64,000 nucleotides of DNA from NCBI GenBank assembly GCA_032622095.1, contig CP136067.1, forward strand, positions 122,239,030 through 122,303,029, in the 5' to 3' direction. Positions 4,839 through 32,900 of this stretch are shown here, one piece after another. Under the pieces are notes generated by a model. That model had not been told where the DNA came from, ran no database searches, and was given only the letters and a program-made list of their open reading frames with translations. A program made the position numbers and the translations under genes. Within the stretch, counting starts at the first letter, position 1, and the number at the start of each line of letters is the position of its first letter. The stretch is from Siphonodentalium dalli. Lineage: Eukaryota; Mollusca; Scaphopoda; Gadilida; Siphonodentaliidae.

Positions 4839-7800
4839 GTATTCATTCTATATGATCATTTATTACACACCCATTGACGTGAGGCACATGTATTGAACGG
4901 AATCCCAGTCATTGAATACATGTTAGTGTATACCTCTAGTGGAATACAAGCCGGAACTATTCTTGTTGACGTTGTCGCCAAGAAAGATGACGTACATTAC
5001 GTCGATCATCCGCTTCCGGTGATCCCCCATAATTACTGGTTATTTGTCAGACTTAAATCACAATAAAGGTAGCTATAGTAACAATGGAGGTGACATTCAT
5101 GGATTGAACAGGTAGAATAAATACAGAACACAACTTGTATCATAATATATCCTTGGTGCGCCATCCGCAACTCATTCGATAAAAGAGTCTCGATTAAGAT
5201 GCGCGTTGTGTTCTGTCTATTTATTATAGGCTCAACAATGGATTATAGAAGAAATCGCCAACAAATAATAATCGTTATCCACCACAAGCAGTGAACATAT
5301 AGAAAATTACACTTTCGTAGTAGCTTTGACATTTCGGACGCCTATGACGTAACTGAATTTCTTGAAATAACTATCATCGAATTGTAAAATGTTAACCATA
5401 AATACAATGTAGTAGCATTAGTATAATTCTATGAATTAGATTTGAGTGTGACCCGGTTATAATGGGTATATGCACAGCACACATGAAATAAAAAGAAAAT
5501 CTAGTGTCGTGAGTGGATGCCAAAAATAATCTCCGTGACAAATGACCGTGACAAATGTTTATTTGTTGCTTGTGGCAAGCCACTCGCGAATTTTTTTTGT
5601 CTCAGTCACTCATGAGTTATTTTTTGGTATCCACTCAAAAAGAACTAGATATCCTCTATTTATTATGTGCTTGTTCCTAGAAGTACAGTGTTATTACTGT
5701 TCTATATTTACAAATCCGTCTAACATGAATTTTGCGTCAACCATGAAAACGCAACTATAAAATAAAAGCATCGTCACGCATAACAAATCAAGCCCTGTAT
5801 GTGCCTAAATAAACCTTGTAAGCCTGTATATTTTAATGGATGGATTCTATAAGGGTGACATGTAATAAACACATAACGACACTTGTGTTAATGGGTGTGT
5901 TGATACGGCACTTGTGCCTCTCGGTCTATCCTTCCGTGCTAGCACTCGTGTCGTATCAACAAACCCATTAATACTCGTGTCGTTCGGTGTATATCTCTTA
6001 TGGCGCTGTAAACAGGCACCAGTCTACAAGTTTCAAATTGCTGCTTATTAGGGAGAAATTGGACTGTTCCCAAGTAGAAGTCATAAAAGTTGAAGTTCAG
6101 TTTACACCCCAACATCACCTTTCTATAATATATATAGAATATGTAGCTTGTTTCATCACTGTTTACGTGCATGAGGGGGATTTGAGCATTTATTGGGAAA
6201 GGCCCTGCCGACACCAATAGATGCCAAATCCCCCGACTGGCAACATTAACTACATATTTTATTTATCCTTTGCGCAAAACTTGCCTTTTGTGGTGGAATT
6301 CTTCAGTTTTTCATTTGTTACTTTGATGGTGCCTTACATCTATGAGATCAAGAAAAGTAATTAGTATTCACGACGTGGGCAAACCGGAGTGCAGCATAGA
6401 GCGAAACAGATTTTTTTTTTTTTTTTTATGATAATTTTAAACTGGCCTTGTTTTAGAGCGAAAACGCATTTTGTATCAATTACGGTGAACTATGGATGAA
6501 AAAATGTCCCAAAATCAAAATGACGTCAATTAGGGTGGTTTCCTGCACAATTTGCATATAAATAATTATGTCAATAAAGATATGTTGACCTAATAAAGCT
6601 ATGTTTATCAGTCAGGCTTTATATATAGGCAATAGAGGTAGTGAGCTGTGGATAACATAAATTATTAAGCAATACAAAAGCCTATTTATAAAACCATTAT
6701 AATGAATAATTACACCATTATAATGAATAATTACACCATTATAATGAATAATTACACCATTATAATGAATAATGAATAATTACACCATTATAATGAATAA
6801 TTACACCATTATAATCAGAAAATGCACTTTACATTTTTTTTTACATTTTTCAGTCAATTTGTTTTTAACTTGGCGCAGACACCTCTAGTTTTTTTCAGAG
6901 TTATGACCTTGAAATTTCACATATATCTATGTTTATTATCTCCTAGAATAAAGATGCAGCGCAAGGGTGAAATGTTCAAATTGATCATTGACAATATGAC
7001 GGATAAAGACGCGGGTACTTACACCTGCAAGGTTGGAGAGAGACCCAGCAAATGTGAGGTCAAAGTTCAAGAGAGTAAGTACAAGTATACATTATAAAAT
7101 AAAAAAAAATTATGCATGATTTGAATGTCTGAGTTTGGTTATAATTGGTATTACATGTATATACAAAGGGAATTAAAGGGGGACTGTACACTAAATTCGG
7201 CCATTTATGGGACCATCCCCTTTTATACTCATTAGAAAATATGCAACACATGAATGAATTTGAGCCATGGATTAGTGCAAAATACACTGATGTGCTCTAT
7301 GAACGATACAAACAACATGGTAATTATAATGAAAATGAGTTTATGCCTCGAGTATGATTAAATCTCTGCATTAATATGTGGTAAGGGAAATACTTGGTAA
7401 TGACAACTGTGTTTTTATTTTTAAAATAACATGTGTTCATGAAGTTATAACTAAATAGTAAAAAAGTACCCATCTTTTTTTTTATTTGTCCTGACATGAA
7501 ACGACTGCATTATTAGTTTAGTTCACAAGGTAAAAGATCTTAATTATAGATCCCAATTTAACTGCAATAACCCTTAACTAATGGAAAAACACATGTACTT
7601 AAATTTCAAACCCCAGATGACATTATGTAAAATATATGCCATATTATATATCATTTGAAAGAGGAAGCTCCAAAACATTGTATTTTCAACTTATTCAATG
7701 TAATAAACTGTGAACATGTTGTATTTGTTAAGATATCGATGTCTGTTCTGTGCTCATGCTTCTGCACAAAGTCTATTATTTTCAATGGAAGGGGAATAAC

Positions 7801-10800
7801 TCTATTTATTTAGATATAGAGTTATTCCCCTTCCATTAAAAATAAACTATAGTTTGAATTATGTTGGATTCTGGGAGCCACAAAGGGGGAAATGTTTTTA
7901 TGATTTCAGCTATTTTCTATTACTCTTTGGGCACCCTCTGAGACACAGACTTCCAATGGTGATTAATTATAGTATTTTAATCATATTTTATGGCATAGAT
8001 TGTTATTAAAACCGTAAATCAAGTCACTATAATAAAATAATCGGTGACTCGAAAATTAAGTGGGCCTTGAATTTTAACATTAAATAACGCTGTTATGGTA
8101 TGAATTCATGAACATTTTAGAAGACAACTTAGTCAATATTGTATAAACTTTTCATAGCTTGCTAAAACTAATTAACTCCTGTTTTATTCACAGAGCCCAA
8201 ACCACCAAAGGTTGACAAGTCCAAGATACCAACGGATCTCCGTCTGAAGCGAGGCGAGAAGATCAATTTCAAGATCCCATTCACTGGTGAGTTTTGTTAC
8301 TTCTGTATTCATCAGTTCTGTAGAAGCAAAGAAAGCAGTTATTCATCCAAAGTTTTTATGCCTTCTAACCCCTGGAGAAGGTTCGAATTGATTGATTGAT
8401 TGGGGTTTGATGTCGCTTTCAGCAATTATGGCCATATCACGACATTGCCAGTTTTAATGGTGGAGGAAATTCACACACTTACGGCTAATCTAATAGCGAT
8501 TTCATCGGCTGATAAACTCACCGACCATGTGTGGCAAACCACCGGCCATCGGCGAGTAACTGGCAACTCCACCAGATAATGATTTCGAGTTACAAAGTCT
8601 GCGATGGAAACATGTGGATTTGAACCCTTATCGCCAGAGCTGGAGGGCGAAATGGCTTGGCAAGCCTTGAAATAGGGTGTCTGTCATTTGCAGAATGAGG
8701 TCCCCAGAGGGTGAATTTAGTGATGCTACCCCGCATAGTGGGCTAGCATCACCAAATTCACCCTCTGGGGACCTCATTCTGCTGAGGTGTAAGCAGAATG
8801 AGGTCCCCAGAGGGTGAATTTGGTGATGCTAGCCCGCTATGCGGGGTAGCATCACTAAATTCACCCTCTGGGGACCTCATTCTGCAAATGACAGACACAC
8901 TATTTCAAGGCTTGGTTACCCCTAACCGATTGAGCCACCGAGGCCCCTGGGAAGGTTCGGAACATAATAGTCGAGGGTTCTACTTTTCCATTATTTCTGA
9001 CTATCCTTACAAACATTTAGACTTGTAACTCTGGTTTGGATTATTTAGTACGGAAACCGAAGTGCAGATTAGAACGAAATGGTTTGTTGGTTTTTTTATT
9101 TTAATTTTAAACTGGCCTTCTGATAGTTTATAGATGTTGACCTAATAAAGCTATGTTTGTTAGTCAGGCTTTATGTAGCAATAGAGGTAGTGAGCGGTGT
9201 ATAACATAAATTATTAAGCAATTCAAAAACCTATTTATAAAACCATTATAATGAATAATTACACCATTATAATGAATAATTACACCATTATAATCAGAAA
9301 ATGCACTTTATATATGCTGTCTGCACGTATGCATACTGGTTTTTTCTAAGTTATAAGATTAGATACGTTTGATTGGTCTTTTGAAACATTAATTTTCGAC
9401 AACCTACATGTATAAAAGATAAAATAAACAAAAGGAATACATTGTATAATAATTGATATAACACATACCAGATTAACAGAATTAGTAAGATGTAGACTAT
9501 ACAATTATTACTGGGAATAGGTCACCTGCGGAAGGATGCGATATACCATATGCAAGCCTTGAAATAGTGAGCCTGTAATTTGCAGAATGAGGTTCCCAGA
9601 GGGTGAATTTGGTGATGCTAGCCCGCTGTGCGGGATAGCATCACTAAATTCACCATCTGGGGACCTCATTCTGCAAATGACAGGCTCACTATTTCAAGGC
9701 TTGACCATATGGTACACTGCCACTTCCACAGTCGTCCAATGCCTAGCATGAATATGGCCTTTATACAGGGTATGAGACTGTTAAGGAGTTGTCCGGCACT
9801 AACAGGTGACCAAAAACCATCGGGGATAGCATAAGAAAACAGTCCTAAGACCATTTATTTCCATTATGGTCCCCATATGTTGATAGCTCAATTGGGGGAA
9901 AGAATACCCACATGTTACTCATATTAACCCATTGTAGAGTATTTATAACGTCATACACATCATGAGTAAATTTAACGTCAACGTCATAGCAAAAATTATT
10001 AACAAGTTCGGGTCAAAAGGGTCCAATAATTTGTTTTAATTTATGTGCATTTTCTGTTAACGTGTGTTATCATAATCGATTGCACTTATACATTTGGGAC
10101 ATTATATTAATCAAAATAACTCCTATACCAATCATTTATAAATGAGATAATTTATTGAAGTTATTTCTGCATAAAATGACACTTCCTGAAACGACATATA
10201 TGTCGTTCTATTCCTCAACTGATAGACGACATATATGTCGTTCTACTTGCCAAAGGGTTAAGCTGTTTTACAATATAATCCTATATATTAACTCTATTTC
10301 AGGTACTCCGGAACCAACGATGATATGGAAGAAGAATGGCGAAACATTAAACGAGGCTGATTTCACTATGTATAAGGAGAATGGAGAGGCTGTGCTTACC
10401 ATTCCTGATGCCCAGACAAATGACAGTGGCACTTATGAACTCACACTTGTCAACGAACTTGGAGAAGAGAAAATTCCCATCAACGTCACTGTTATCGGTA
10501 GGTTATTAACATCACTGTTATTGGTAGGATAATAACGTTACTGTTATTGGTAGATTATTAACGTCACTGTTATTGGTAGGTTAATAACGTTACTGTTATT
10601 GGTAGATTATTAACATCACTGTTATCGGTAGGTTATTAACATCACTGTTATTGGTAGGTTAATAACGTTACTGTTATTGGTAGATTATTAACGTCACTGT
10701 TATTGGTAGGTTAATAACGTTACTGTTATTGGTAGATTATTAACATCACTGTTATTGGTAGGTTAATAACGTTACTGTTATTGGTAGATTATTAACGTCA

Positions 10801-13800
10801 CTGTTATTGGTAGATTATTAACGTCACTGTTATTGGTAGATTATTAACGTCACTGTTATTGGTAGATTATTAACGTCACTGTTATTGGTAGATTATTAAC
10901 GTCACTGTTATTGGTAGATTATTAACGTCACTGTTATTGGTAGATTATTAACGTCACTGTTATTGGTAGATTATTAACGTCACTGTTATTGGTAGATTAT
11001 TAACGTCACTGTTATTGGTAGATTATTAACGTCACTGTTATTGGTAGATTATTAACGTCACTGTTATTGGTAGATTATTAACGTCACTGTTAGGCCAATA
11101 TAAATAAATTACTAGATTTACATCCAACTTTTTCAGAGAAATGGGGCGGGAGGGCGGATTTAATTTATATTTTATTCTTTGTAACATAAATGGTCATGGA
11201 GAGTTCTAGATATAGAAGTAGTATCCTATCTTATATAATACAAGGTGATTTTGATTGTCGAATTTGATCAAAATAGATTGAATAATGGATCATTGAATTG
11301 TAATTTGACGGTTAAGGCAAGAATACAATTTACATATACATATAAAAATATATAAAAAAAAAAAAAAATTAGGGATCTAAAATATGGTCGAGAGGGGTTT
11401 AAAATCCGGCAATCTTTTTTTATTGGCCATATTGGTAGGTTATTAACTTCACTGTTATTGGTAGGTTATTAACATCATTAACGCCACTTTTATTGGTATT
11501 TTTAGACTTCCATTATTCATGCTTATCACCAACATTGCATAAAACACAGACACTTGTTCAATCACAGTTTGTAATAACAATCTAATGATCTCTATCGCTA
11601 TATGGTATCACCTGAATGTTCTGTTCTAAAAATAGAACAATAAAGTGTCCCACTTAATCATCTCATTTTATAATAAAATATTTGAAATAAAATCAATATT
11701 AATTGATAGAGACATTTCCGGACATGGGTCTTCAATTCATATTTATTATTTTGTACCCAAGAAACTATTTCAAAATTGTCATATGAAGAGATAATCCATC
11801 TTTAAAATTGTCCATTATTTCAGACAAGCCTGGCCGACCAGGAAGTCCACTTGAGATCACTGACGTCTACTCTGATCGTTGTGCACTCATGTGGAGCAAG
11901 CCAAAGGACGATGGCGGTTGTCCAATCGAGAAATACATTGTCGAAAAACTTGACCTGGACAAGAATGACTGGGAAAAAGTCTGCGATACCGAGGATCTGG
12001 AGATCGATGTTTCCGATTTGATTCCAGGAAACAAATATGCATTCAGGGTCAAGGCCGTTAACTCTGAAGGCGAGAGTGAACCTTTGGACAGTGACAGAGA
12101 AATCATCGCTAAAGACCCATGGGGTAAGTAAGAATGGGCATATTTGGCTGATTTGTTTTATTTTCGGTTGTATTTTAAATTTTTTTTTTTATCACATAAT
12201 TAACCCACAAAACCAGCTTCATAATTATTGGTAAGACACACGTGTAATATTAGCGCGTGCGATGATGTCACGCCATTATTTAAAGGACTTGCAATTGCTG
12301 AAGTTTATGATTGTTGCTTTCTATAAATACGTCGCGTTGCTTCGCGTTTATTTGATCATGTGATAAAAGGTATCTCAAACTCATTCTATTTTATACGTAA
12401 TTTATCAACCTCGTCCACTTAATTCTATTTGAGCCTCGGTAAACCTCGGCTCAAATTGAATTTAGTGAACTCGGTTGATAAATTCCGTATAAAATAGAAA
12501 CTCAAATGAGATCCTCTATTTATTGAATAAAAACAAATTGGGGTGACAGGGCTCATAAGACCATAACATGTGGATAAAATATGTTGAATATGCTGACATA
12601 ACCATGTCATTTGCTGGTGGGCATATGTTTTAACCCTTTCAGTGCCAAGTCCGATTTTTGTATCAACCCATATTTCCTTGATAATTTTTCAAATTTATTG
12701 ATTATAATAATGTGATACATCAATGTATCACATTATTATAATCAATAAATTTGAAAAATTATCAAGGAAATATGGGTTGATTCAAAAATCGGATTTGGCA
12801 CTGAAAGGGTTAACTAAGCCGATTTTGAACACAAAGGAAACTGCGAATACCAATCAAATTTCAAATTTAATAGCTCTCTATAAATTTGAAACAAATCAAA
12901 TTTCTAATCTAATATTTCACAAGTTTGGAAGTTTATAAAACATAGCTACTGTTAACATTGACTTTATCAATTCATTTAGAAATATTTTTGAAAGTATTCT
13001 TTATATTTTCCTCCTTTTTTTTCAGATCCCTCTGACCCACCAGGTGAAGTTGAGATCACCGACTTCGACAAGGATTATGTCGACCTTGCTTGGTCCCCAC
13101 CCAAGGATGATGGTGGAGCACCCATCAAGGACTATGTCATCGAGATGAAAGAGAAAGGTCAACCAGACTCGGCATTTAAGCCTGTGAGTTGCATTTTATG
13201 TTGAATATCCGATATATAATTTATTGATTATAATAATGTGATATATTGATGGAAAGAGCTCTTAGAGCTCTTTCCATCAATGTATCACATTATTATAATC
13301 AATAAATTTGAAAAATGATCAAGGAAATATGGGTTGATACAAAAATCGGACTTGGCACTGAAAGGGTTAAATATGCATAATCCGATTCGATGGTCCCAAT
13401 ATAATCAGATTCCAACATCAACCATATTTTTAGAAATGCCTCTTCAGTTATCAGAATCGATTAATTGCCCAAAAATAATTCTAACCACTATCAACTATAG
13501 TATAAAATTGCCCAAAACGTGTTATTTATCAACATGTTGTTTGATGAAATCTGGCCTTATTATTAACAGAAAGTCTCTTGATTTTAAAGTTATCCATCTC
13601 ATCCGCAATTTGGTCAGAGACCGTCGGCTCGTCAACTGTTTACTAGGCCACCAATATTTCTTGATGGTGAAAAATAATAGATTAAAAAAATTGCTATATA
13701 ATAACTCTGAGGTTTGATAGGTGGGTTCCTCGACACGAATCAGATATTTTTTACCCCTTAATCCAAATAAATAGTAATTGAGTGACACTTAATCGGATTA

Positions 13801-16800
13801 TGCATCTTTAATTTTACCCCCTCTCTCAAAGAGAACAGGTGGTTTACTGGATTGACTGTGTCCAGCAGTTCTGGCTTGATAACTCCAAAAAATCTGAACC
13901 AATTTCAATTCGTTTTTCAGAATAAGGAGGTGCCCGGTAGCGAGTGTGAAGCTCAAGTTACTGGTCTCGTGGAGGGCAAAGAGTATGAGTTCCGTGTGGT
14001 CGCCAGGAACCGAGCTGGTCCATCCGATCCAAGCGTAACATCTCCACCAGTTCTCACCAAGAACAGAAAGGGTAAAAATCTAATTATCTTGAAAAAATAC
14101 CATATATTTTAATATATGTGACCCGCCATATCAAATCCAGTCGGAAGTCGGGATTTTTTTACCATGTGCCAATGCATTCTCTTATATATGCGAGTCGACC
14201 ATAGGTCGCCTCGCATATATAAGAGAATGCATTGGCTTAACAATTTTTTATCATGTTTTATAAATAAATGTTTCTTACAATTTTTAGGACATAAAATAAA
14301 AAAGCATCCATTACCCTGCTGGGAGCCCCACACATATATAGAAGTACATAGAAAAGTATTGTCTGCTCATGTTTGTCTGGGGCTCTGTATGGGTGAAATT
14401 ATAAAATTGTTAAAGAATACAAGAAAAAATTATTAAAATTGTAAAAAATTGTTAGGCCAATGCATTCTCTTATATATGCGAGGCGACCTATGGTCGACTC
14501 GCATATATAAGAGTAAGCATTGGCACAGGGTAAAAAAAATCCCGACTTACGACTGGATTTGATATGGCGGGTCACATATCTAGATGGGCGCTGTCAGTTT
14601 TATCAACAAAATTTGTTTTAAAAAAACATGGCCGTCAGCAGCCAACTTGTTTATCTGGAAATGTGGGGTTTTTTGTCCTTCCGTGCATATATCTCAACAA
14701 ATGGTTATAGAATCTAAATGAAATTTGGTATGGAGGTTCACCATCATGACTGATTTCAAGGGGGGGGGAAATGACGTTGTTCACGTTTTCCAATTTAGAG
14801 TTATGGAAATCATTCCTTTTTGTCCGTTCGCACAAAATATCTCCACCATGGTTTATTGGATCTGACTGAAATTTCGTATGGAGATTTACCATCACGAATA
14901 CTTTCAAAAGCCCAGTGACATTTGCATTTTCATTATCAACCTTTGTCAATTTTTCAGGATTTTGGTCTGTCCGGCTTGTTTAGTTTAGATTTGGGTTCCG
15001 TCCAGTCTCTTGTTTTGTTTTATATTTGTTTGTTTTCCTTTACAGTGAAACCAAGGATTGATGACAGAGGACTGAAAGCAATCAAGGTTAAAAACGGAGC
15101 ACCGTTCACCATCCCTGTGGAATTCATCGGCTGTCCAGAACCAGAACTTACCTGGACCAAGAAAGGACTCGTGAGTTACCTTCAAGTCTGGAAATAGTGT
15201 GTCTGACATTTGCAGAATGAGGTCCGAACAGCGGGGCTACCATCGCCAAATTCACCATCTGGGGACCTCATTCTGCTTAGGCCTCATCTTCTGGGAAGTG
15301 TCTATAGTCTCAATTTAAAAACATTCCTTCTGTTTAATTGCTATATCCCCTCATTTACAGAAGATAAAATGCACAATCAAGGTGACTAACTTCAAATGGG
15401 GAATTCAATATCATTCTAGGCTTCCCATAGCAGTTGAAGCCTAAGCAGAATGAGGTTCCCAGAGAGTGAATTTGGTGATGATATCCCTCACATAGCCTCA
15501 CTAAATTCACCCTCTGGATGCCTCATTCTGCAAATGTCAGATACACTATATTCAGACTTGGTTACCTAACTTAATACCTTTGTTCCACATCAATTGACTT
15601 TAAGCATGTGTTGTTGATGGAATCACATCCAATTAATAATTAAAACTTTTGTAACTATAACAGCCATTGATGGAAATGTCATTTTGGGATAATTATGTCC
15701 GAAGAGAGCTGAAAAAAATTTGTTTATCATACTATACATTGTTTCCAACCCAAAATTGGATTATATGGAGCTACAGTAATGCTCTAAATAATTGACTCCT
15801 TAACCACAGCAGAATTATGGGTAATTTTTCAGGATTTAGTCAGAAATATGGCTTGTTGCCATTCATCAGAAAGCTCTCGGTGAGAGCTTTCCGATGAATG
15901 GCAACAAGTCATATTTCCGACTAAATCCTGTGCACACTACAGTGATCAACCCTTTTGGAAATTAAATTTAAATGCTGTAATTAAGGCATCTCCACTGATT
16001 GATCATGATATTTTGCACCAAATATAAACCAAAATGTCAACATATCCGGCCCAGCTGAGTCAACTGTCTTTCAATAGAAATGTATATGTATGCAAGATCG
16101 TCTGCTAAAATTATCCAATATTCACTGGGTCCACTCAGTGTCGACACCCTTTACCCAACAAACCGGCCAAAACCGGCCAAATAAAGCTTCAACAGCCTAA
16201 AATATCTTCGGTCTGTCTCAATAGAACCATACAAATATGGGTATCATTGGAACCGGCTCATTGACCACATTGTGATGGTTACAGTTATGCCCTGTGCCAA
16301 TGCATTCTCTTATATATGCGAGTCGACCATAGGTCGCCTCGCATATATAAGAGAATGCATTGGCCTAAACAAAATCTTTTTTTAACACTTTTTACCATTT
16401 TTTCTTACATTCTTTAACAATTTTATAATTTTTAATGTGTTAAGCCAATGCATTCTCTTATATATGCGAGGCGACCTATGGTCGACTCGCATATATAAGA
16501 GAATGCATTGGCACAGGGCCCTTCTGTTGGGTAAAGGGTTAACAACACTACATTTTGTAATATCCCAAGTGAACTTCACCCACGGCACAAAATCTCTTAT
16601 TTATGTTAATTTCCCTATTCAAAGAACCAAAAAGATGTGCCAGTCGAGGAGAGCGAGGTGTTTGAGTTCTTTGGCGTGAAGAGCAAATCAGAGAAGGAGC
16701 ACGCGACACAAATCACGAATAAGGCTTCCGTGAGGAAGGACACTGGTGTCTACACCATTAAGGCTACCAATAAACACGGATCTGACACCGCTACCATCGA

Positions 16801-19800
16801 GGTTGTCATTCTTGGTAAGTCATTCTCAAGTAAAATAATAAGTCTTGAAATAGTGTCAAGCCTTGAAATAGTGTGTCTGCCATTTGCAGAATGAGGTCCC
16901 CAGAGGGTGAATTTAGTGATGCTACCCGGTACCCCACATATCACCAAATTCACCCTCTGGGGACCTCATTCTTCTTAGACCTCAGCAGAATGAGGTTCCC
17001 AGAGGGTGAATTTGGTGATGCTGGCCTGCTATGCAGGATAGCATCACTAAATTCACCTCTGGGGACCTCATTCTGCAAATGACAGACACACTATTTCAAG
17101 GCTTGATATTATAGTGTGTCTGACATTTGCAGAATGAGGTCCCCTGAGGGTGAATTTAGTGATGCTACCCCACACAGCGGGCTAACATTACCAAACTCAC
17201 CTTCTGGGGACTTCATTCTGCTTAGGTCTCATCTTCTGTGTAGTATCCATAGTCTCAAATTAACATTGTTTTTAGTCACTTTTTCTCCTTCTGTTCAGTT
17301 TCTAATTCCCCTAATTTTCATAAGATAAAATGCATATTAATCGAGGTGACTAATGGGTGAATATCACAAACTTCAACTGGGGAACTTCAATTTTATCCTA
17401 GGACTCTCATAGCAGTTGAGGCCTAAGCAGAATGAGGTTCACACAGGGTGAATTTGGTGACATCTGAAAATCTCAGACACTCTAGTTCAAGGCTTGGTAA
17501 ATTCTTGTATAGGCAGTCTATTTGTTGATTTTAAATTTTAAGACAGATTGTACTGTTTTATACCTTGCATTTGAATAAAACGTGATTAATGAATTGTTCA
17601 TTGCGTCATCATCTAATCAATTTTAGGCAGACTTTTATTCGGTGCCAACGGTGAAATTTGCACTAACAATTTTTATTTGACAGCAAACAAATAATTTTGC
17701 ACCGGAGTTTGGCTTCAATGATAAATATTATTAAATGTCCCGCGGAATGGAAAATTTCTAATTATTCTTATGACTAACCAAAATTCTCATAACCTATAAA
17801 TACCCCAAAATGATACAGCACTTTTGGATTATACAACAAGCTCTTTAATATTGTGTTGTGGAGAGCGACAACCTTACAATTTTGTCTAATTCGATGGTCC
17901 CCGTATCATTAAATTCCAACAACATTTCTTTAAAAGACGCTTTAGTTATCAGAATTGATTAATTACCAAAAAATTATTCTAACCGCTATCAACTCCAGGG
18001 TAAAATTTCCGAAGTGTTATATATAAACATTTTGTTCAACACAATTTGGTATCGAGTGCATGTCGGTCGGCTCGTGGAATATTTGCTAGACTACCAAATA
18101 TTCCAGATGGTGAAACATAACAGATTTCAAAAATCGATATCTTATAACTCTGAGCTTTGATGGGTGGGTTCCTTGATTCAAACCAAATATGTGTTACCCC
18201 CCGAAGCCAAAGAAATAGTAATTTAGGATTGTTAATTCAGATTATGTATCTTTAATATATCATTGTGAACAGTGCTGACTTTTTACTTTTTTCTGTGTAA
18301 TATGTTTATCATTATGAACAATGGTCACCTTACGATTATCATTGTATTACAGGTCCACCAACGAGACCTGGAGGACCTTTGGAGGTCATGGACATGACCA
18401 AGGATGGCTGCACTCTCACCTGGAACAAACCAGAAGATCTTGGTGGATCTGATCTCAAGTAAGGGCCATAACTCTGTCATGGGTATCCTATGTTACAACA
18501 GGGTTCATTCATGAGTCTGGAATCCTGGAAAGTTTTGGAAATTAACCCTTCCATGACTGGAGATTCTTGAAATTTTGAGAATACATTAGCCTAACAATAT
18601 TTACATTGACCTTGTAAGCCAGCGCATTCCCTTATATATGCGAGGCTCCTTATGGGAGACTCGCATATATAAGAAAATTCACTGGCACAGGATCTTTATT
18701 GCTGCACCAGTGCAGCTCCCGTCATGAAAGGGTTAAGTTTGATCATACATTTAATTGATATTCTCCGTAGCGATGTCGGAAACGTTATGGAATTCTATCA
18801 TAGGATACAAGCCTTGAAATAGTGTGTCTAACATTTGCAGGGTGAGGTCCCCAGAGGGTGAATTTAGCAGACCTAGGATCAGATTGAAGTTCCCCAGTTG
18901 AAGTTGGTGATGTTCACCAATTATTCACCACGATTATGTATTTTATCTTCTGAAAATTAGGGGATATAGAAACTGAAGGGAAAAAGTAACAAAAAACAAT
19001 GTTAATTTGAGACCTAAGATACATCCCAGAAGATGAGGCCGAAGCAGAATGAAGTCCCCAGAGGGTGAAATTAGTGATGCTAGTCCACTGCGCTATAGCG
19101 TCACTAAATTCACCCTCTGGGGACCTCAATCTGCAAATGACAGACACACTGTATCAAGGTTTGGTTGAAGTACAAGTTTTTGGTTCTTACAGAAAAAAAA
19201 TTAATAAATTACAAAATATTCATGTTTAGTTATGTACTAGGGTTGATGTTTCACTAAAATTATATGGAGCTCCATGGTCCAGTGGTTAGCGTGTCAGACT
19301 TGTATTCGCTGTAAACACAGCGATGCTCGTTCACAGCTCTTCGCTGATTTATTGTCAGTCTTTTTTAGCTTTTAGCAATGTTCAATTTTCGGATTGTTCA
19401 CTGTTTCAAATCCCGTGCTAACTTGTGACCCTTGAGCAAGGTCACTCTTACTGTGTTGACTTTGCACCACTCATGCGTTAAACGAGTACCAGTCAGCTTG
19501 TCATACTGTTGAGTATCAGAGCATGATCAGAGAAGCAACTGCAATGGCTGCAGCCAGTTCATTGGTTGGCTTGTACAAATAACTGGGGTAATATTGTAAT
19601 GTTTAAAAGCATGTCGGAGCAAGTTATTGGTTAATCACTATATAAAACTGTCATTAATATATAAAGAGTAATCAATTGGTTCAGAGAATTACGTTTAATA
19701 ATCTCGAGAGACGTCGGTAAGAGTTTCTTACCTAAACTCTCAGAGAGAGCTTTCTGATGAATGGCAACAAGCCATATTTCCAACTAAATCCTGAAAAAGC

Positions 19801-20941
19801 CATTAATTAAAAATGGTTATGTCACTAGTGAATTATGTCATTTCTCGTGACGTCATTCTGCTGTGGTTAAGGAGTTGATTATTCAGGGCATTACTGTATT
19901 ATTATAAAATTTCTCATGTATAGGGGCTACCGAGTTGAGAAGTACGATGCTGGCAAAGGGAAATGGGAGCCCGTGGCTGATGTTGCTGGTAACAAGTGCA
20001 AGGTCGGCAAGCTGAAGGAAGGCAATGAATATAAGTTCCGTGTGGTTGCTGAGAGCTCAAACGGTGACAGCGAGCCACTCGAAACCGAAAAACCATTCAT
20101 CTGCAAGGATCCATTCGGTAAGTATCTCAATTTTGTGTGGTGTATCATCAGCACTGAAGGGAATATTTTCACCAAATTTCAAGACCAGATGGTACATAGG
20201 ATTTCGTAGTGTCCAGAACACTTTTGTGTGCCATTTAAATCTGTTCGTGGTGAGAGTAAACCCTTCAGCTTAAATATCTGTTATAACTGTTTTGATGTAC
20301 TTCAGAGAAAACTCCAGAGTTCAATGCCTTACTTCATCCTTTGAATTTTGTAATCAAGAAATTCTGTTTTAACCCTTTCAGTGCCAAGTCCGATTTTTGT
20401 ATCAACCCATATTTCCTTGAACATTTTTCAAATTTATTGTTTATAATAATGTGATCAATAAATTTGAAAAATGTTCAAGGAAATATGGGTTGATACAAAA
20501 ATCGGACTTGGCACTGAAAGGGTTAAATATTAGAAGAAAAAAACATTTGGAGTTTACACAAAAACCATACAAATCTGATAAAAGTTAAAAAGCTTTGTGT
20601 TTTCTGCCTTGAACTCATTAATTATTACCTTTATTACACTACACGCCTGTTACTGAAAAAAACACTCTTCCGTCATCTTAGCCGTGTCATCTTTTTCAAG
20701 CAATTCCACACATGTGTGGAATTGGATGACATTGATGTCATACGACGTACGTGACGTTTGCCTTTCATACACACATGTCTTTCTGTGTATTTCTCACACT
20801 TTCTTTTCGCACTCAGATATCTCAACAAACTTGTCTCTGATTTCTCAAATGCTGCCTTTCATAGCTCCAAATTTTTCAAAAAAAATTCTTTAAATTATAC
20901 TAAAATATGTAGAACTTCTTCTCAGGAAAGAATTTCTCTCC

Positions 20942-20973
<32 letters not shown>

Positions 20974-23900
20974 TTTTTCAATCTTTTCTCTCTTGGCGAA
21001 GGAACCCTGGAGTTATTTCTATACACTGATTCCATTCTATGTTGTAAAACTCAATATTGTTGTGTGGTTTTTTGGTATATCTATTTTGACTATATGTGAT
21101 CTAATCAAATGAGTGATCTATATCTATCTAGAGCGTGATCTGTAATTTATGAGTGATCTATATTTATGAGTGATCTTTTATTTATGAGTGATCCATATTG
21201 TTTATTTTATGAGTGATATATATATTATGAGTGATTTGTGTCTAACACCTGATTTTATAAAGATAGTTTTCTTCCCTGCTTAGTTTGCAAAGACACTATG
21301 TTTCAAAACTATTTTCTATAGAATCTTGTTTATAAAACAAGTCTAATTAAATAACAGTCAGTTGAAAATACAATTTTTATGGTTATTATTTAAGTGCAGG
21401 TATTCTGCTCATGTTGTGGTTTGGGTTTTTAGTCACGCCATTTAACCCTCTCATGATGGGAGCTGTGCTGGTACAGCATTAAAGATCATGTGCCAGTGCA
21501 TTCTATTATATATTCGAGTCTCCCATAGGGAGCCTTGCATATATAAGAGAATCCACTGACTTACAAGATCAAGGTAAATAATATTGTTAGGCCAATTACC
21601 TGTTTTGATGAAAAAGAAGACTGCAAACTTTTTCCATTTTAAAACTTTTTTTTATTTTATAACTTTTGTAATATCACAATTAAGACTGGTACTAGTATCC
21701 TTGTAGATATATAACACATGTTTATACTGAAGTTTCTTTTCTGGCCATTAGGAAGAGATTTGTCACAAAAATACATGAAAGTTCTGCAGTTTATTCGAAA
21801 GTACACTAATATTGGCATTGAAGTATTTAGTATTTTAGAGGATTATGGATTATGATATGTGAACTGATATTTACTAAGTATTTAGTTTTACTCAACATTA
21901 TTATGCTGGAACAAATATTTGTTAGCTATTAGACGTCATACACCTGTTGTTTTCTTCCTGCATGTGTATAATTTGTAAAAACTTTATTTTAGCTCGTTGT
22001 CTTTGTGTTTCAATTTTTCTCAGTAAGATATCCTAGGTTAACCATAAACATTTTAACCAACACAGACACAATATTTTACATCAACAGTAATGCCATAAAT
22101 AATCGACTCCTTATCCACAGCAGAATTATGGGTAACTTTTCAGGATTTAGTCGGAAATATGGCTTATTGCCATTCATCGGAAAGCTCTCAGTGAGAGCTT
22201 TCCGGTGAATGGCAACAAGCCATATTTCCGACTAATTCCTGAAAAGGTACCCATAATTTTGCTGTGGATAAGGAGTCGATTATTTTTTAGGGCATTACTA
22301 TATATGTTGTTTTATTAATGCTGTGTGGAATGACTTACAGGGAAGGATGTAGATTCAAAATCAGGTCTCAAAGGCAAGGGTAAATCAAAAGATGCCGATT
22401 CGGAAGATTTAAAGGGGAAATTGCGTGGTAAAGGTGGTCGTCATGGTGATGATGACGACACAAAAGGAGTGAATTTGAAAGGTATCCCGGGTAAAGGTGA
22501 CCGTGAATCGGGTGCAGGATTACGAGGACGACGTGGTCGTGATGGCGATGATGATGGGTCAACAGGTCGTGGCTTGAAGGGTCGTCGCCCTGGAGACGAT
22601 AAAGATGCATTTGATTTTGGAGTTAACCTGAAAGGTATTCCTCGCAAGGTTGGAGATGATGACGACTTAAAAGTAAAAAAAGTCGTCCCTGTTGAACGTC
22701 GCCCCGGAGACGATAAAGATGCATTTGATTTTGGAGTTAACCTGAAAGGTATTCCTTACAAGGTTGGAGATGATGACGACTTAAAAGTAAAAAAAGTCGT
22801 CCCTGTTGAACGTCGCCCCGGAGACGATAAAGATGCATTTGATTTTGGAGTTAACCTGAAAGGTATTCCTTACAAGGTTGGAGATGATGACGACTTAAAA
22901 GTAAAAAAAGCTGTCCCTGTTGAAGGTCGCCCCGGAGACGATAAAGATGCATTTGATTTTGGAGTTAACCTGAAAGGTATTCCTCACAAGTTTGGAGATG
23001 ATGACGACTTAAAAGGAAAAAAAGACGTCCCTGGTGAAGGCAAATCTGCCGCCATGAGCTTCCAAGATAGGTTACGCAGTAAAGATAATCAGCACGGTGA
23101 TGATGACGATGTCTCAGGCGGATTCGATTTTGGAAATAGAGGTCCAGAGACTGATGACCTAGATTCAAAAGGACAATTTCTAGGGGAAGATGGTCCAGGT
23201 ATTGACGGCCAATTTGGATTACCAAGCGGTGGATCAGATGATGGTGATGCAAAGTTCGGGTTCCCAGAACGTAGGACGTCAGATGATGCAGGTTCAAAAT
23301 TTGGCGTTCCCGGCTCGGACGGATCTGGTCTCGATGCAGTAGGTAGACTTCCTGGTGATAACGAAGATGCCGCTGCAGGCTTCGGAGTTAGAGTTCCGAG
23401 AACTGACGACACTTCTGCCGGCTTGGAGAAGAAGGGTCACCGGGCAAAGAAAGATATCAGTGAAGGTATCCCTGAAAACGACTGCCATCTTCTTCGCTGC
23501 AAGCTTGATCAGTGCATACATATGCTGGTCTTGCCTCGTTGAAACTGCCATCTTCTTCGCATCTAGTTCTATCAGTGCATATATTGGTCTGACCTTATAG
23601 AAACTGCCATCTTCTTCACTGCAAGCTCGATCAATGCATATACCAGCCTCACCTCGTTGAAACTGCCATCTTCTTTGCTGCTAGTTCTATCAATGCATAT
23701 ACTGGCCTGACCTTATAGAAACTGCAAGCATACATGGACTTTCTGCTTCAAAATCTTTACTGCAAGTCTTGACTGAAAGTAGCTTCTTAATAGAACTACA
23801 AGCCTGAATTGTATGAATTATGGAATCGTGGTTGCTAGTCTTCAGTTGAATGATCATCAATGTTTGAATGTCCACTGCTAAATCTTAACTGCAGACCTGA

Positions 23901-26900
23901 ATGATATTTACTTCTCTATGTTCTCTACATTGCAAGCTTAGCTTACCCCTTTTTTTCAAAATGGATTCACCCATTTAGTTATAAGCGCAGACATGGGAAT
24001 GGTCCATTATTCATCTGGAGGGATGTTTAGGAAACAAAATCAGACAACAGATAAATAAAACTGCAGAATTATTCCCATTTATTGGTGGGAAATGTTCAGA
24101 TAATAAGTTCATCAAACATTAGTTGAACTTACTATCTGAACATTTCCTGTGGGAACTACAGTAATGCTCAAATTAATCGACTTCTTAACCACATCAGAAT
24201 TATGGGTAACTTTTCAGGATTTAGTTGAAAATATAGCAATATTTCCTACTAAATCCTGAAAAGTTACCTATAATTCTGCTGTGGTTAACCCTTTGAGTGC
24301 CAGGTCCGATGTTTGTATCAACACATATACCCTGTGCCAACGCATATACCCTGTCGACCATAGGTCGCCTCGCATATATAAGAGAATGCATTGGTCTAAC
24401 AATTTTTCATCATTTGTTATTATTTTTTACAATTTTTTTACAATTTAAAAAAAAAAAAAAAAGTTTTTTTTTTTAATTTTTTTAGGGCCGATTTTACAGA
24501 CCGTAAATTAGGGCCGATGCGATCGGCCCCTGGCACTGAAAGGGTTAAGGAGTCGATTATTTAGGGCATTATTGTACATGGACTTTCTTCCTCGAAAGCT
24601 TTACTACAAGTCTTTACTGAACAGTAGCCTCTGAATAGAATTACAAGCCTGAATTGTATGACTTATGGAATTGTGGTTGCTAGTCTTCATTAGAATGATC
24701 ATCTTTGTTTGAATATCCGCTGCTAAATCTTTACTGCAGACCTGAATGATATTTACTTCTCTACGTTCTCTACATTTCAAGCTTACCCCTTTTTTTTACT
24801 AAATGGATTCACCCATTTAGTTATAAGAGCATACATGGGAATGGTCTATTATTCATTTGGAGGGATGTTTAGGAAACATAATCAGAAAACAGTTAAATAA
24901 AACTGCAGAAGTATTCCCATTTATTGGTCAGAAATGTTCAGATAATAAGTTCAACAAACATTAGTTGAACTTACTATCTGAACATTTCTTATGGGAACAA
25001 ATCGTCATTGGATATTTAATAAATAAAGGTTAAAGGGAGACTACTTAAATCCAGCCATTTATCAGGCCATCTCATACTACACTCAACAGAAAATAGAATT
25101 AATAATTAACCCTTTGAGTACCAGGTCGATTTTTGTATCAACCCATATACCCTGTGCCAATGCATTCTCTTATATATGCGAGTCGACCATAGGTCGCCTC
25201 GCATATATAAGAGAATGCATTGGCCTAAAAAAAATTTTTTTTTAATAATTTATTCTTATATTCTTTAACAGACTTATTTTGTAGGTTTAGGGCCGATGAG
25301 ATCGGCCCCTGGCACTCAAAGGGTTTTTAACAGAATTAATATGAGTCAAGAATGAGAGTTAAATATACTCGCGTACACAAACAACCTGATAATTATAATT
25401 GTTCCTGGAGTACATTCATGTATTTTGCATTCATCCCTGACTCAAATTCATTCATTTCTTGCATATTTTCTGTTGAATAGAGTAGGAGATGACTTAAAAA
25501 TTGGATGAATTTAGGTACAGTCTCGCTTTAAGTTGGATCATAGCCCTCAGATCTTCGCTGCAGCTCTTAATTGAATGTTAGTAGCTCTCAAATCTCTACT
25601 GCTCAGATCAAATGAATGGAACTATCTGATATTTATTGCTAGTTTTAGACTGAATCATAGCCCTCAATTGATGACTGCCATAATTACCCGAAAAGTGTTG
25701 TCTTCATAGGTTTTTCAAAGTTATCTATCCCGGCAATGCGCTAACCTACAGTAATGCCCTAAGTAATCGACTCCTTAACCACAGGAGAATTATGGGTAAC
25801 TTTTCAAGATTTAGTCGGAAATATGGCTTGTTGCCATTCTCAGTGAGAGTTTTCCGATGAATGGCAACAAACCATATTTCCGACTAAATTCTGAAAAGTT
25901 ACCCATAATTCTCCTGTGGTTAAGGAGTCGATTACTTAGGGCATTACTGTATGAGCAAAATTTTTATTTAATAGTTCCCAGTGATACATTCATTGATACA
26001 AAGTTTTGGAAGATTTGTGTATTCCTATAATTTTGCTCACTCAAACAATACATGTATGAACAGTGAGCTAGGACTTTTATAAATTATAACTAAACAAAAT
26101 GCTCGTTGTAATGAGCAGACGGTTATTTCATAGATTAGCACATTTCCAGGATAGATTACTCTTGAAAAACATACGAAAAACACTTTCAAACATAATTAAA
26201 TGTTAGGCCACACAAAGTAAATCTTTCGTACTGAGGCATTTTCTCGTAAAATGCATTTTTGATAATTTATTTTATCATATGAGACAAGCCCTAATCAGCA
26301 CTCATGAAGCGGTAATGGGCATCATACTGTAAGAAATAGATTTCTAATTCTGCAGAGAAATGTCATTAATTATAGTAGACTTTTATGTGTAATATTACAC
26401 AATTCAAGGATGTACTTGCTTGTCCAAAAAAAAAAAAAAAATTAAAAGAGGGGAAATATATAGTTTGCATTCAGTTGTTTGAGAATGATTTGGCTGGGCA
26501 AGAATTACGAAACATCAATATCGTGTGGCCTAACCTATATAATACTGAGAATACCAACCTGCTAATGTCGCCAAATTCAGCGCTAATGTCTGTACATGAA
26601 ATGCTGAATCATATTCTTCACACCACAACACTGTTAACTCTTTATAGCTTTTATGAATGGTAAGTTAATTCATGCCTCTATGAGGTATTTTGAATTTCTG
26701 CATTGTATGAATTCCAAATGTTGAAATTGTTTTTCAGGGAATGATACTTTTTGCCATATGATGCCTCATTGACAATTTTGTAAATGCCTGAGGCCGGGCT
26801 ACATTTACAGTGCCATAGATGCAACTTGCTACATAGTATTTATAACGAGGTCCCAAATTCACATGAATAACTCATTAAATACACTTACGACTTAACTAGC

Positions 26901-29900
26901 TTGTAATTCAAACAGATTTTTGGTACTACTGTGCAATTTGTATGTAGAAACAGCCATTATGGATAAATAGATGCAGTGACAGGGATGGGGCGTGGTTTGG
27001 ATAAGTCAAGGGTTTTTAGCCTATGAAAGTTGGTAATTTATCCCACTAATATGCTTCTTTTAGTGTAATCTAATGAAAATTCAGTGATTTAAAAACCTGA
27101 AAATTTCTTAATTTTTAATCTGAATTCTTAATTGGCTCTCCAAAAGTTTAATTTAAATGCTATTCAGACAGATGCTTACTGTAGAGCTGAAACAGTCACC
27201 AAAAATGTTAAAGAGTTAACAGACTTCTTTACTAAAGGAATTCCAATGTAAAATTATGATGAACATAATGTCATTGTGAAAAATGGTTCAAACTTTTAAA
27301 TATTGTAGGAGAATGGCCCGAAATTTTTTTTGGACACAAACACAGTGTAAAGTTATAACTTAATAGTTAAGTACAGTAATGCTCTAATTAATCGACCTCT
27401 TAACCAAAGCAGAATTATGGGTAACTTTTCAGGATTTAGTCGGCGAGAGCTTTCCGATGAATGGCAACAAGCCATATATTTCCGACTAAATCCTGAAAAG
27501 TTACCCATAATTCTGCTTTGGTTAAGAGGTCGATTAATTAGAGCATTACTGTACTCTGACCTTTCTGTAACTATTAAGTGGCAGGTTATATTTATGACAC
27601 TGTAAAAATAGTCACTCTGATTTTTAAAACGTTTTGGATACATGCTGACTGCTGGGTGCATTTTATGCTAATGTTGCATTCTCAGGTTTTGAACTGTTTA
27701 ATGGAGTATTGTTACATCACTTTTTCAGCATTTTCAAAAGCATGTTTCTTGCCGAAATTATCGATGCACATTTTATCAAAATAGTTCAGTGCCCATATAA
27801 TTCCACATATACATACCCCTATATGAATAGAACCTTTTTATACAAATTATACATTTTTCAATGATATTACATTTCCTAAACATTAGTTTCCAGAACAAAT
27901 TTAAATGGCCTTGTAATTTTGGCAGTATTATGATAACCTATATCAACAATCAAAATATATATATCTAAAGTAAAGTATTGTTTCGTCATTGAACATATTG
28001 ACCTGGTGTCTGGCTGTATAATAAATACTGTATAAGTGTCTGTACAGCATTATTATGTATATGCTGCAAAATTTCTTTAGAAGTGACAATTATGAAGTTC
28101 ATTAGACATGATAATTATGAAGTTCATTAGACATGATAATTATGAAGTTCATTAGACATGATAATTATGAAGTTCATTAGACATGATAATTATGAAGTTC
28201 ATTAGATGTGACTATTATGAAGTTCATTAGATGTGATATATGTAATTATGAAGTTCACTAGATGTGATTATTATGATTACATGCACTTTCTCAGCATATG
28301 ATCATAGTTTTAGTGTGTTGATTTCTTGCATATATTTGCATGTTGAAAACTCATTCAAGATATCTTACTATACATGTACACTATTGTACAAGCATTTGTT
28401 TTTCTGCTTAAACTTTCAATATAAATGTTTCACATCTATTATTGTTTTGTCTAATATTATTTACTTTTTTCTCTTGAAAATCAAATTAGCAACATTCACC
28501 TTGTGGTTCTTGAATGAAAGTCAAAATTTTAAATCTTACATTTCAACACTACAGGCTTTCAACACTGACATTTTATCATTCATATTACTCAAAATTAGAA
28601 GCAATTTTTCCAGAATAAATCAGATAGCTTTTATCAACTTATTTTCTGTTTCTTTCATGTTTCAGAACTTAACCTGTATGTCTTACCATGTAAAAGATAA
28701 ATATAACATTTGAAAATATTTCAGAAAGACCCACTTTTTTATATATTCTACTCTATTTTATGTCGTCTGTTTCTCAAAAAGTTTTATTTTGGTCAGAGTA
28801 TTTCTTGAGTTATCAGAATTGTTTACATTTATATTTTATTATACTCATCAAGCTTTCTAAATCAAACATCCAATCATTGATAAAGTTTTTAACTTTTCAG
28901 TGTCATATCAATATTTGTGCAAACTTAATAACAAGCTATATGAACTACACATATTTCTTTTACCAGAATTTCAATGTATTTTATCATCTAGTTCACATAT
29001 ACATAAATTGCTTCTTTTCTTAATTTTACAATATTTAAGTTGAATCTTAGCTGATGTTTCATATAAAATTGGAAGTGAACAATGACATAGGAATATAGTC
29101 AAAACCAAGAGATTATAAAGTGAGAATAAAACAGTTTCACCTTATTGTTACATAAAAATGCAATTTAGATGTTACTTATTTTACTCTAGACAATGTTAAC
29201 CCTTTACCCAACAGAAGGGCCCTGTGCCAATGCATTCTCTTATATATGCGAGTCGACCATAGGTCGCCTCGCATATATAAGAGAATGCATTGGCTTAACA
29301 CATTAAAAATTATAAAATTGTTAAAGAATGTAAGAAAAAATGGTAAAAAGTGTTAAAAAAAGTTTTTTTTTAGGCCAATGCATTCTCTTATATATGCGAG
29401 GCGACCTATGGTCGACTCGCATATATAAGAGAATGCATTGGCACAGGGCATAACTGTAACTATCACAATGTGGTCAAGGAGCCGGTTCCAATGATATCCA
29501 TATTTGTATGGTTCTATTGAGACAGACCGAAGATATTTTAGGCTGTTGAAGCTTTATTTGGCCGGTTTTGGCCGGTTTGTTGGGTAAAGGGTTAAAGGAT
29601 TCCTTCCCTCCATGTATGATGTATAACACAATATTAATTAATGGGTACTAAATAATGTAAACTCGTTAAAACATTTCCCTATATATTTATGCTGCAATTT
29701 AGCATTTTGTCATGCCATGTTGATGACATGGTATATGACAATTTTTTTCTGAAATAAAATCAATTTTTACAACATTTTCCAACTACTTTTGCAGAGAAAG
29801 CCACACCCCCTGGTACTCCAGAAATTGTTGATACTAACAGAGACCACATTGATCTTAAGTGGGAGGCGCCAGAGAACAACGGCGGATCTCCTATTGTTGG

Positions 29901-32900
29901 ATACGATGTCGAGAGAAAAGATGTCAAGAGCGGAAGATGGACAAAGCTCAACAGGACTCCTTTACCAGTGAGTGTTGCCGTTCTTAACCCTTCGAGTACA
30001 AAATAAGTCTGTTAATGAATATAAGAATAAATTATTAAAATTGTACAAAAAAAAACAAAAAAAAACAATAAAAAAAGGTTAGGCCAATGCATTCTCTTAT
30101 ACATTCTCTTATATATGCGAGGCGACCTATGGTCGACTCGCATATATAAGAGAATGCATTGGCACAGGGTATATGGGTTGATACAAAAATCGGACCTGGC
30201 ACTCAAAGGGTTAAATCTTAATGAATTTTTTTTTTTTTTAGTCCTTTCTTCAGTTGGGCTGGTTAAAGTATATCTATCTCTGTATACTGTATTATAATAG
30301 CACAGTGGGCTAGCTAGCTCTGGGGACCTCATTCTGCTTAGCTCTCATCTCCTCTTGAAAGTTTCTTTATTATAAAATTAACAAGTTTTTTAGTTTCATT
30401 AGAAACATCTTCAAAAAATTTCTTTTCTTTTTTGTTTAGTTTCATTATATCTCCAAATCAGCAGATGACACATTGCATAATCGAGGTGCCCAATGGGTGC
30501 ACATCACATTTTTCACCATCTGGGAACTATATCTGAGTGTATATCTCCCATAGCAGATGAAGCCATGCAGAATGAGATCTCCAGAAGGTGAATTTGGTGA
30601 TGCTAGCCTACTGTGCGGGGTAGCATCAATAAATTCACCCTCTGGGGACCTCATTCTGCAATTATCCAGCACCATATTCTCAGATCTGTTCACTGTTTCC
30701 AATCACTGGAGATGAATGAGAGGGCATTACATAACAACCAAGCCTTGAAATAGTGTGTCTCATTTGCGGGGTAGCATCACTAAATTCACCCTCTGGGGAC
30801 CTCATTCTGCAAATGACAGACACACTATTTCAAGGCTTGATAACAACTCTTTTCACAGGACATGGAATACAAAGATGAGAAGGTTCAGGATGGAAAAACT
30901 TATGAATACCGTGTCTCAGCCGTCAACCAGGCAGGACCATCAGATCCCAGCTGTGTTTCTGACAAGGCCACTGCCAAACCAACAAAAGGTATGCCTATAT
31001 ATTAAAGTCATGCGAAACACTCCAGTAGGGTTATAACATAGAAATGGAGAATAATCTTGCTCAAAGTATTTTTTTTTTACAAATATTATATCCAAATTGA
31101 CAACACGCACCGTCAATCTTATATATTAATTAATTACTGTGACACTCGAAGGTGAAATCATTTTCGTTAGTTTATCCCAGATAGTTGCGTCCCAAATCAA
31201 CACATAAATATTTACAATTGAGCTTAGTTCAAACAGTGTTTTCTATGGATAGGTAAGGTCGATTTGCTTGATATTTTCGGCGATGTTACTAAAATGCTAG
31301 ATTTCTCCAGTTGGCATAGTGCTTGAATACTAACGTATCAGTTTCACGCACCTGAACAAGTCCATAATATGCTTTAAAATTACTGCAGTCAATAGCACAA
31401 TTTCTCATTATTGTGCTGTCTTAAATCGACCTGTCTAGTTTAAACCCTTCCTATACGATAGCATCATCGATGAGTAGTTATCTCTTAGGAAATGTTCAGA
31501 TAATAAGTTCAACAAACGGCCATAGGTGATCATTTGTTGAGCTTTTTATCTGAAAATTTCCCACCAATGAATATGAATCATTCTGCTCTTGTATTATCAG
31601 TTAACTGTCTGTCATCTGCTTTTATTACCCTCCAAATGAATGATAGACCATTCCAATGTATACATTTTTAACTGAGTGGGAAAATCCATTTAATAACAAA
31701 ATGGATATTAATCTTGTGATTACAGAGGCATCTAAGTAGATCTTGATACTGTCATGACTCTAATTTTTCGATTTTGTTTATATTACAGAGGCACCTAAGT
31801 TGAATACTGATTCCTTATTTGGAGCCAAGGAGATCCGAGTCCGAGCTGGTGAACCTTTGGACATTGATCTGGGTATCTGCGGTGCTCCAAAGCCTGTGGT
31901 AGAATGGACTAATGATGGAAATATCCTTCCTGAGAGGGTCAGTATAATTCTATAGATAGTACAGCAATGCCCTAAATAATCGACTCCTTAACCACAGCAG
32001 AATTGTGGGTAACTTTTCAGTATTTAGTCGGAAATATGACTTTTTGCCATTCATCGGAAAGCTCTCACTGAGAGCTTCTGAATACCTGCAAAATACCCAT
32101 TGAAGAATTATTCGGAAATTTTCCGCATATTTATGTTTTGAGATACTTCTTACCAATTTCATAATTGTGGGGTTTAAACAAGCCATGTCCGTTTAATTAG
32201 AGATGACAAAGAAAGGGTAACTTTCGGTTATATTTTCTTTGTGCTGAAAAACATTTGCGGCTATTTTGCCTGTTGAAATCTGAATAATTATATCCCCATC
32301 CAAAAGTGGGGGGTGTACTGGAATACATGCATCCGTCCGTTCATATATCTCAACCATGGGTTATCGAATCTCAATGAAATTTGGTATGCATGTTTGGCAT
32401 CAGGAGGGCTTTCAAAAGAGGGTACAATTCTGTTGTTTGCATTTCTGTTCAACTGAAAACTTTGAATTTTTGTCGGTCCGCTCATATATCTTTTTAACTT
32501 TGGTTTCCATCTTGCCCATGTTTAACCCTTTACCCAACAAACCGGCCAAAACCGGCCAAATAAAGCTTCAACAGCCTAAAATATCTTCGGTCTGTCTCAA
32601 TAGAACCATACAAATATGGATATCATTGGAACCGGCTTCTTGACCACATTGTGATAGTTACAGTTATGCCCTGTGCCAATGCATTCTCTTATATATGCGA
32701 GTCGACCATAGGTCGCCTCGCATATATAAGAGAATGCATTGGCCTAAAAAAAATCTTTTTTTAACACTTTTTACCATTTTTTCTTACATTCTTTAACAAT
32801 TTTATAATTTTTAATGTGTTAAGCCAATGCATTCTCTTATATATGCGAGGCGACCTATGGTCGACTCGCATATATAAGAGAATGCATTGGCACAGGGCCC

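Follow-up and report, generated by a model that had tools for sequence, protein, structure and literature searches.

Disordered inserts are already known from the chains of titin-family proteins, with N2B-us and the PEVK segments as examples. The N2B-us of titin, a stretch of 572 residues within the Ig chain, is thought to be without stable tertiary structure (PMC11530556), and the N2B exon is given as 2781 bases, a multiple of 3, in the first column (presumably human) of a table in PMC5852582. According to PMC3835035, the PEVK segment of insect projectin lies between two N-terminal Ig tracts, measures 34-624 residues, is alternatively spliced and has a P+E+V+K content of 42-100%. The same source places PEVK repeats in titin, TTN-1 and Sallimus and describes them as absent from projectin save for a short one in honeybee. 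Mytilus twitchin is described with 15 Fn3 domains, a PEVK-like domain that is called small, and two regions with PKA sites, D1, which separates Ig 7 from Ig 8, and D2, which separates Ig 21 from Ig 22 (PMC12040844). In scallop catch muscle, three twitchin mRNA variants are reported to arise by alternative splicing (PMC5963113).

We analyzed a stretch of 64,000 nucleotides from the scaphopod Siphonodentalium dalli (the window), together with stretches upstream and downstream of it, which are designated by L numbers. The joined kinase pieces of the gene that runs through the window scored 442.9 bits to 1kob, 307.8 bits to 1koa and 307.3 bits to 3uto; 1kob and 1koa are the twitchin kinases of Aplysia and C. 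elegans, respectively. The best non-twitchin match was 2x4f (MLCK family member 4, 254.4 bits), and the titin kinase 1tki reached 193.7 bits. The MLCK-like kinase is nearest twitchin, as is characteristic of twitchin/projectin. Profiles for the two domain types were self-trained from seeds taken in the window and in L002. They detected 21 Fn3 matches in the window, which correspond to 12 domains after the pairing of halves, plus a series of Ig domains, all of them on the + strand. Three further Fn3 domains (in L002/L003, identified by eye), more Ig domains and the kinase exons are found in the downstream stretches, and no Fn3 was seen upstream of the window among the open reading frames examined there (at least 45 or at least 55 amino acids). 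In total, 15 Fn3 domains (12 in the window and three downstream) were counted for the gene, in an Ig/Fn3 array of the twitchin type. Two Arg/Ser-rich linkers were also observed, one upstream, before the Fn3 array, with the motifs RRSS, RRAS and RRPS (L009:1452-1661), and one 3′ of the kinase with RRTKS (L005:8749-9018). They resemble D1 and D2 of Mytilus twitchin by place and PKA-type motif alone. Taking together the kinase scores and the 15 Fn3 domains, the gene is, as judged from its sequence, a molluscan-type twitchin. The twitchin assignment proposed by an earlier, sequence-only reading of this DNA thus holds, with 442.9 bits to the twitchin kinase 1kob and an Fn3 count equal to that of Mytilus.

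The feature of interest is a predicted exon at 22341-23465 (+ strand), referred to as the insert, which consists of 1125 bases with phase 1 at both ends and would add 375 residues to the protein. It sits between Fn3 number 3 (18353-20117, +, encoded by exons 18353-18458 and 19924-20117) and Fn3 number 4 (29795-30988, +, encoded by exons 29795-29967 and 30859-30988) of the 15. An intron of 2223 bases (20118-22340, +) separates it from the former and one of 6329 bases (23466-29794, +) from the latter, and the exons that flank it, joined on each side, match fn3 and I-set. The insert is bounded by an AG at 22339-22340 and a GT at 23466-23467, and its phases match the phase-1 ends of the flanking exons at 20117 and 29795. 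The 28 other domain exons (Ig and Fn3, 11824-59282, +), with boundaries chosen by generic splice matrices, were joined into a chain. One of its acceptors, at 16682, is uncertain, and it does not include the Ig exons that lie before 11824 and beyond 59282. This chain encodes 1580 amino acids when the insert is skipped and 1955 when it is included, with 0 stops either way, in agreement with the frame-neutral placement between two Fn domains that had been claimed. Since 16 of 16 domain ends in the reconstructed chain are in phase 1, the symmetry of the insert exon is a requirement of the layout and no separate surprise.

Several observations indicate that the insert is more than a fortuitously open stretch. 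Its frame contains 374 open codons (22343-23464) within a stop-to-stop run of 402 codons (22334-23542). When 20118-29794 was resampled 300 times (first-order Markov), no frame of the six stayed free of stops for more than 222 codons, and resampling of the insert alone (1000 times) produced a maximum open run of 266 codons; the insert frame is longer than every resampled frame. When diverged parts of the insert were compared with one another at E up to 1, all 15 distinct internal matches were in frame (five would be expected at random); two distinct out-of-frame matches appeared when E was allowed to reach 10. The 96 mismatches in the 15 internal matches fell on third positions in 44 cases and on first and second positions in 26 cases each, an excess with a p of 0.006 that is only approximate because the internal matches share their origin and are not independent. 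The internal register and the third-position excess point to past constraint on the insert protein. The insert-type residue composition stops at 23455, 10 bases 5′ of the predicted donor, and the last codons are unlike the rest of the insert.

The encoded segment can be divided into three parts, all on the + strand. The first, of 80 codons (22343-22582), is rich in K, G and D and includes an early, diverged version of the GVNLKGIP motif. It is followed by four tandem 114-base (38-residue) repeats (22583-23038; period 114, 4.0 copies, 96% matches) and by a last part of 142 codons (23039-23464) in which FGxP occurs three times and RRTS once, at 23270. The latter motif may be due to chance, since RRx[ST] was present in 10.8% of 5000 shuffles of the insert. 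The open frame, the AG and GT, the four repeat copies and the six DDDD runs of the insert conform to the earlier description of a 1125-base phase 1-1 exon with 38-residue repeats and Asp runs. The GC content of the insert is 46%, that of the flanking introns 32-33%. Asp accounts for 19% of the encoded residues, Gly for 18% and Lys for 12%; charged residues amount to 41%, the net charge is near zero and neither Cys nor Trp is present. Charges are more clustered than in shuffled versions of the insert, with 3 of 300 shuffles as high.

Pfam detected no Ig or Fn3 domain in the insert at E up to 1, as anticipated from the sequence alone, and the comparison with PDB sequences produced no match at E up to 1. 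AlphaFold2 models made without an alignment had a mean pLDDT of 41.9 for the insert, none of whose 374 residues reached 70, and of 39.1 for the four repeats alone, although such single-sequence models are weak evidence. The AFDFGV of the repeats was modelled as short strands at low confidence. Charge-hydropathy and TOP-IDP scores did not cleanly separate the insert from the four domains of this gene used for comparison, three Fn3 and one Ig. The disorder prediction that had been suggested earlier gave a divided answer: no residue reached a pLDDT of 70, and the simple scores were not discriminating. On the basis of its composition and of the alignment-free models, we infer that the insert encodes a disordered polyampholyte.

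Other origins of the insert were considered and rejected. The Pfam family DUF7601 (PF24547) matched at 22892-22975 (insert residues 184-211) with 31.9 bits, above its cut-off of 27, and the match covered 26 of the 116 positions. Nine repeat-order shuffles were made and two of them scanned; the match was lost in both, so it may depend on residue order. With only 26/116 positions covered, no confident fold and no relative confirmed in bacterial or archaeal genomes, it was considered a chance likeness rather than membership in the family. NCBIfam gave two insert matches far below the cut-off, and PHROGs gave none. A bacterial or viral origin was discarded on the partial nature of the DUF7601 match, on 105 bacterial/archaeal pattern matches that came without a confirmed relative, and on viral contigs that yielded no match. 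The insert was also rejected as a mobile element, as no further copy was found in the genome among the best candidates scored; one stray genome match had an E of 4.95 and lies in C2.

Compared with the systems described above, the insert is like titin N2B-us in being a long, putatively disordered segment within the chain of a giant muscle protein. The statement of the sequence-only reading that no described counterpart is known was too strong for the general idea, since N2B-us is comparable (PMC11530556). They differ in that N2B-us is described as a spring that gives titin elasticity and does not lie between twitchin Fn3 domains, and in the structural domain within it that the title of PMC11530556 announces, while none is predicted in the insert. 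The PEVK segment of projectin, unique and lineage-variable as presented in PMC3835035, shares with the insert a biased composition; the insert differs in being D/G-rich, in bearing repeats and in its location among Fn3 domains. Its P+E+V+K content is 27.8%, compared to 42-100% in insect projectin (PMC3835035), and the observation that it is unlike PEVK in composition was correct. Given this content and a position between Fn3 3 and Fn3 4 instead of the N-terminal Ig tracts described for projectin, the insert was not classified as a PEVK segment. The PEVK-like domain, D1 and D2 of Mytilus twitchin, as described, are non-domain linkers of the same gene family, and the D1-like and D2-like linkers of the insert's own gene occur at other places than the insert. 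No comparable insert was found described in the open-licence literature (titles and abstract starts, among the matches listed). What appears to be new here is the place, the composition and the apparent youth of such a segment in a molluscan twitchin.

The splice sites and the codon use of the insert set it apart from the other exons of the gene. Sites were scored by generic matrices in 29 exons, i.e., the insert and the 28 other domain exons. With a score of 1.86 against a median of 8.52, the donor of the insert ranks last among the 29, and of the 297 GTs in the intron after it, 21% are at least as good. The acceptor is moderate (6.05, median 7.73) and is equalled or surpassed by 5.4% of 314 intronic AGs. 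The sum of donor and acceptor and the pyrimidine content 5′ of the acceptor (0.50) are both the lowest among the 29 exons. The insert is thus a symmetric exon with a weak donor and a moderate acceptor, a combination of the kind expected from an optional cassette, and its donor, weakest among 29 exons, is consistent with an exon that is probably optional. The GC3 of the insert, 0.304, is also the lowest of the 29, compared to 0.486 for the other 28 exons pooled (n=1580; p 1e-10), and it is 0.312 when only one repeat copy is counted (p 1e-7). The synonymous codon use of the insert, given its amino acids, scored -0.166 bits per codon, closer to the 140 intron-region ORFs used as controls (-0.296, sd 0.143) than to 26 exon stretches (+0.198, sd 0.106, leave-one-out); the intron-region control and the background include the first 11.7 kb of the window, where a few Ig exons are located. 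Among the four repeats there are 9 variable columns, and 7 of the 9 are residue-changing, about what is expected under no selection. The low GC3, the weak donor, the codon use and the repeat differences argue against a highly expressed exon that strong selection has preserved for long, and the insert exon is probably young. An open, register-keeping frame combined with intron-like third positions makes it a candidate young exon still under recruitment.

The explanation that we prefer, with moderate confidence, is that the insert is a real coding exon of molluscan-type twitchin, probably an optional and fairly young cassette, whose inclusion would add a disordered leash at the joint between Fn3 3 and Fn3 4. 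The open frame, phases, position, repeats, composition, weak donor and low GC3 were observed directly, while inclusion in the mRNA, disorder of the protein and a function are inferred. Counted against this explanation are a donor of a common grade, an intron-like codon use, repeats that look neutral, and the out-of-frame matches at E up to 10.

The strongest rival, which we consider unlikely, is that the insert belongs to an alternative last exon. Read-through past 23465 to the stop at 23540-23542, followed by poly(A) addition, would produce a short, kinase-less twitchin. The precedent is novex 3 of titin, whose exon 48 adds a stop that results in a titin of about 700 kDa, as described in PMC5852582. 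Like novex-3, the insert would be an alternative exon of a giant Ig/Fn3 gene, but the stop of novex-3 ends the protein while the insert has a phase-matched predicted donor before its stop. The frame of the insert, open to 23542, its donor, the weakest of the 29 compared, and an AATAAA at 24054 would suit a last exon. However, an equally early AATAAA was present in 132 of 300 resamplings, and AATAAA/ATTAAA occur 12 times in the following intron, compared to a resampled mean of 16.0. Furthermore, the composition break at 23455, with final codons unlike the insert, and a donor phase that fits the next exon argue for an exon that ends where predicted.

A constitutive linker, i.e., an exon that is always included and lengthens one joint of twitchin in S. 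dalli, appears distinctly unlikely. Neither the sites nor the phases conflict with such use, but the weakest donor, the lowest site sum of the 29 exons and the low GC3 are not what such an exon would be expected to have. We regard as very improbable that the insert is no exon at all, being either an open tandem-repeat stretch of intron or a decayed former exon. While intron-like third positions, neutral-looking repeat differences and a weak donor could be accommodated in this way, the frame length is beyond all resamplings, and the 15/15 in-frame internal matches (E up to 1), the third-position excess and the boundary match all speak for coding. Least credible is a gene nested in the twitchin intron, for example one for a secreted Asp/Gly-rich protein with the insert as its main exon: the composition and codon use, which set the insert apart from the remainder of twitchin, and a signal-peptide-exon-like hydrophobic ATG frame of 20 codons at 21962-22022 that leads to a consensus-like phase-1 donor GTAAGA (one of 17 ATG frames of at least 14 codons between 20118 and 22340), would agree with it, but strand and phase fit twitchin, and since the sole Met of the insert is residue 238 of 374, such a gene would require a start exon and a promoter of its own.

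If the insert is an optional twitchin exon, as we prefer, its inclusion would place a 375-residue, near-neutral polyampholyte (41% charged) in the Fn3 3/Fn3 4 joint. The otherwise stiff array would then be interrupted by a hinge or leash that connects the N-terminal Ig tract with the part that bears the kinase. Such a leash would uncouple the N-terminal Ig tract, which bears a PKA-type linker, from the remaining Ig/Fn3 core on the thick filament and would let the N-terminal end reach farther. Skipping of the exon would leave the short, stiff form of twitchin, and inclusion or skipping would set that reach. From assumed chain constants, the contour of the leash would be ~135 nm and its free end-to-end distance ~10-15 nm. 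According to PMC12198301, arthropod and C. elegans projectin/twitchin are the counterpart of the A-band portion of titin, and PMC12040844 places mussel twitchin directly on the thick filaments. A hinge, a leash or a docking site is therefore more natural than a spring in series, and of the elastic or docking linker proposed by the sequence-only reading, the elastic part is weak for an A-band-type, thick-filament protein while docking, together with hinge or leash, fits more naturally. The N-terminal twitchin region binds "thick and thin", presumably filaments, according to a title cited in PMC5963113. A further idea, which we find quite improbable, is that this exon is new and lineage-restricted and provides a switchable leash, a charge-patterned disordered segment in which the RRTS at 23270 would serve as a third cAMP-controlled linker beside the catch-release D1 and D2. 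If the exon is used, the thick-filament Ig/Fn3 core of twitchin, usually deemed tight, would accept a long flexible insert by exon gain, and muscle type or stage might decide between a stiff and a loose N-terminal tie to the thick filament.

The introns on both sides of the insert contain repeated sequences. In the 5′ intron, a MITE-like, near-perfect palindromic mobile element occupies 22100-22282 (folding z -26; 87 pairs in 183 bases) and ends 58 bases 5′ of the insert. The window holds 15 occurrences of the core of this element, which may influence the use of the insert exon. In the 3′ intron, a 59-base tandem repeat of 4.1 copies is located at 23481-23725, just 3′ of the predicted donor; among the best candidates scored in the genome at E up to 0.001, this was the sole locus. 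Farther upstream in the window, a 26-base minisatellite of 23.5 copies (10482-11092) starts at the end of an Ig exon (match 10281-10499). Near the 5′ part of twitchin, an open frame of 586 residues on the opposite strand (L008:1388-3148, -) is possibly an intronless gene. An intron of the kinase region includes transposase-like open frames (L004:5861-6553 and 6783-7118, +), which look hAT-like by eye.
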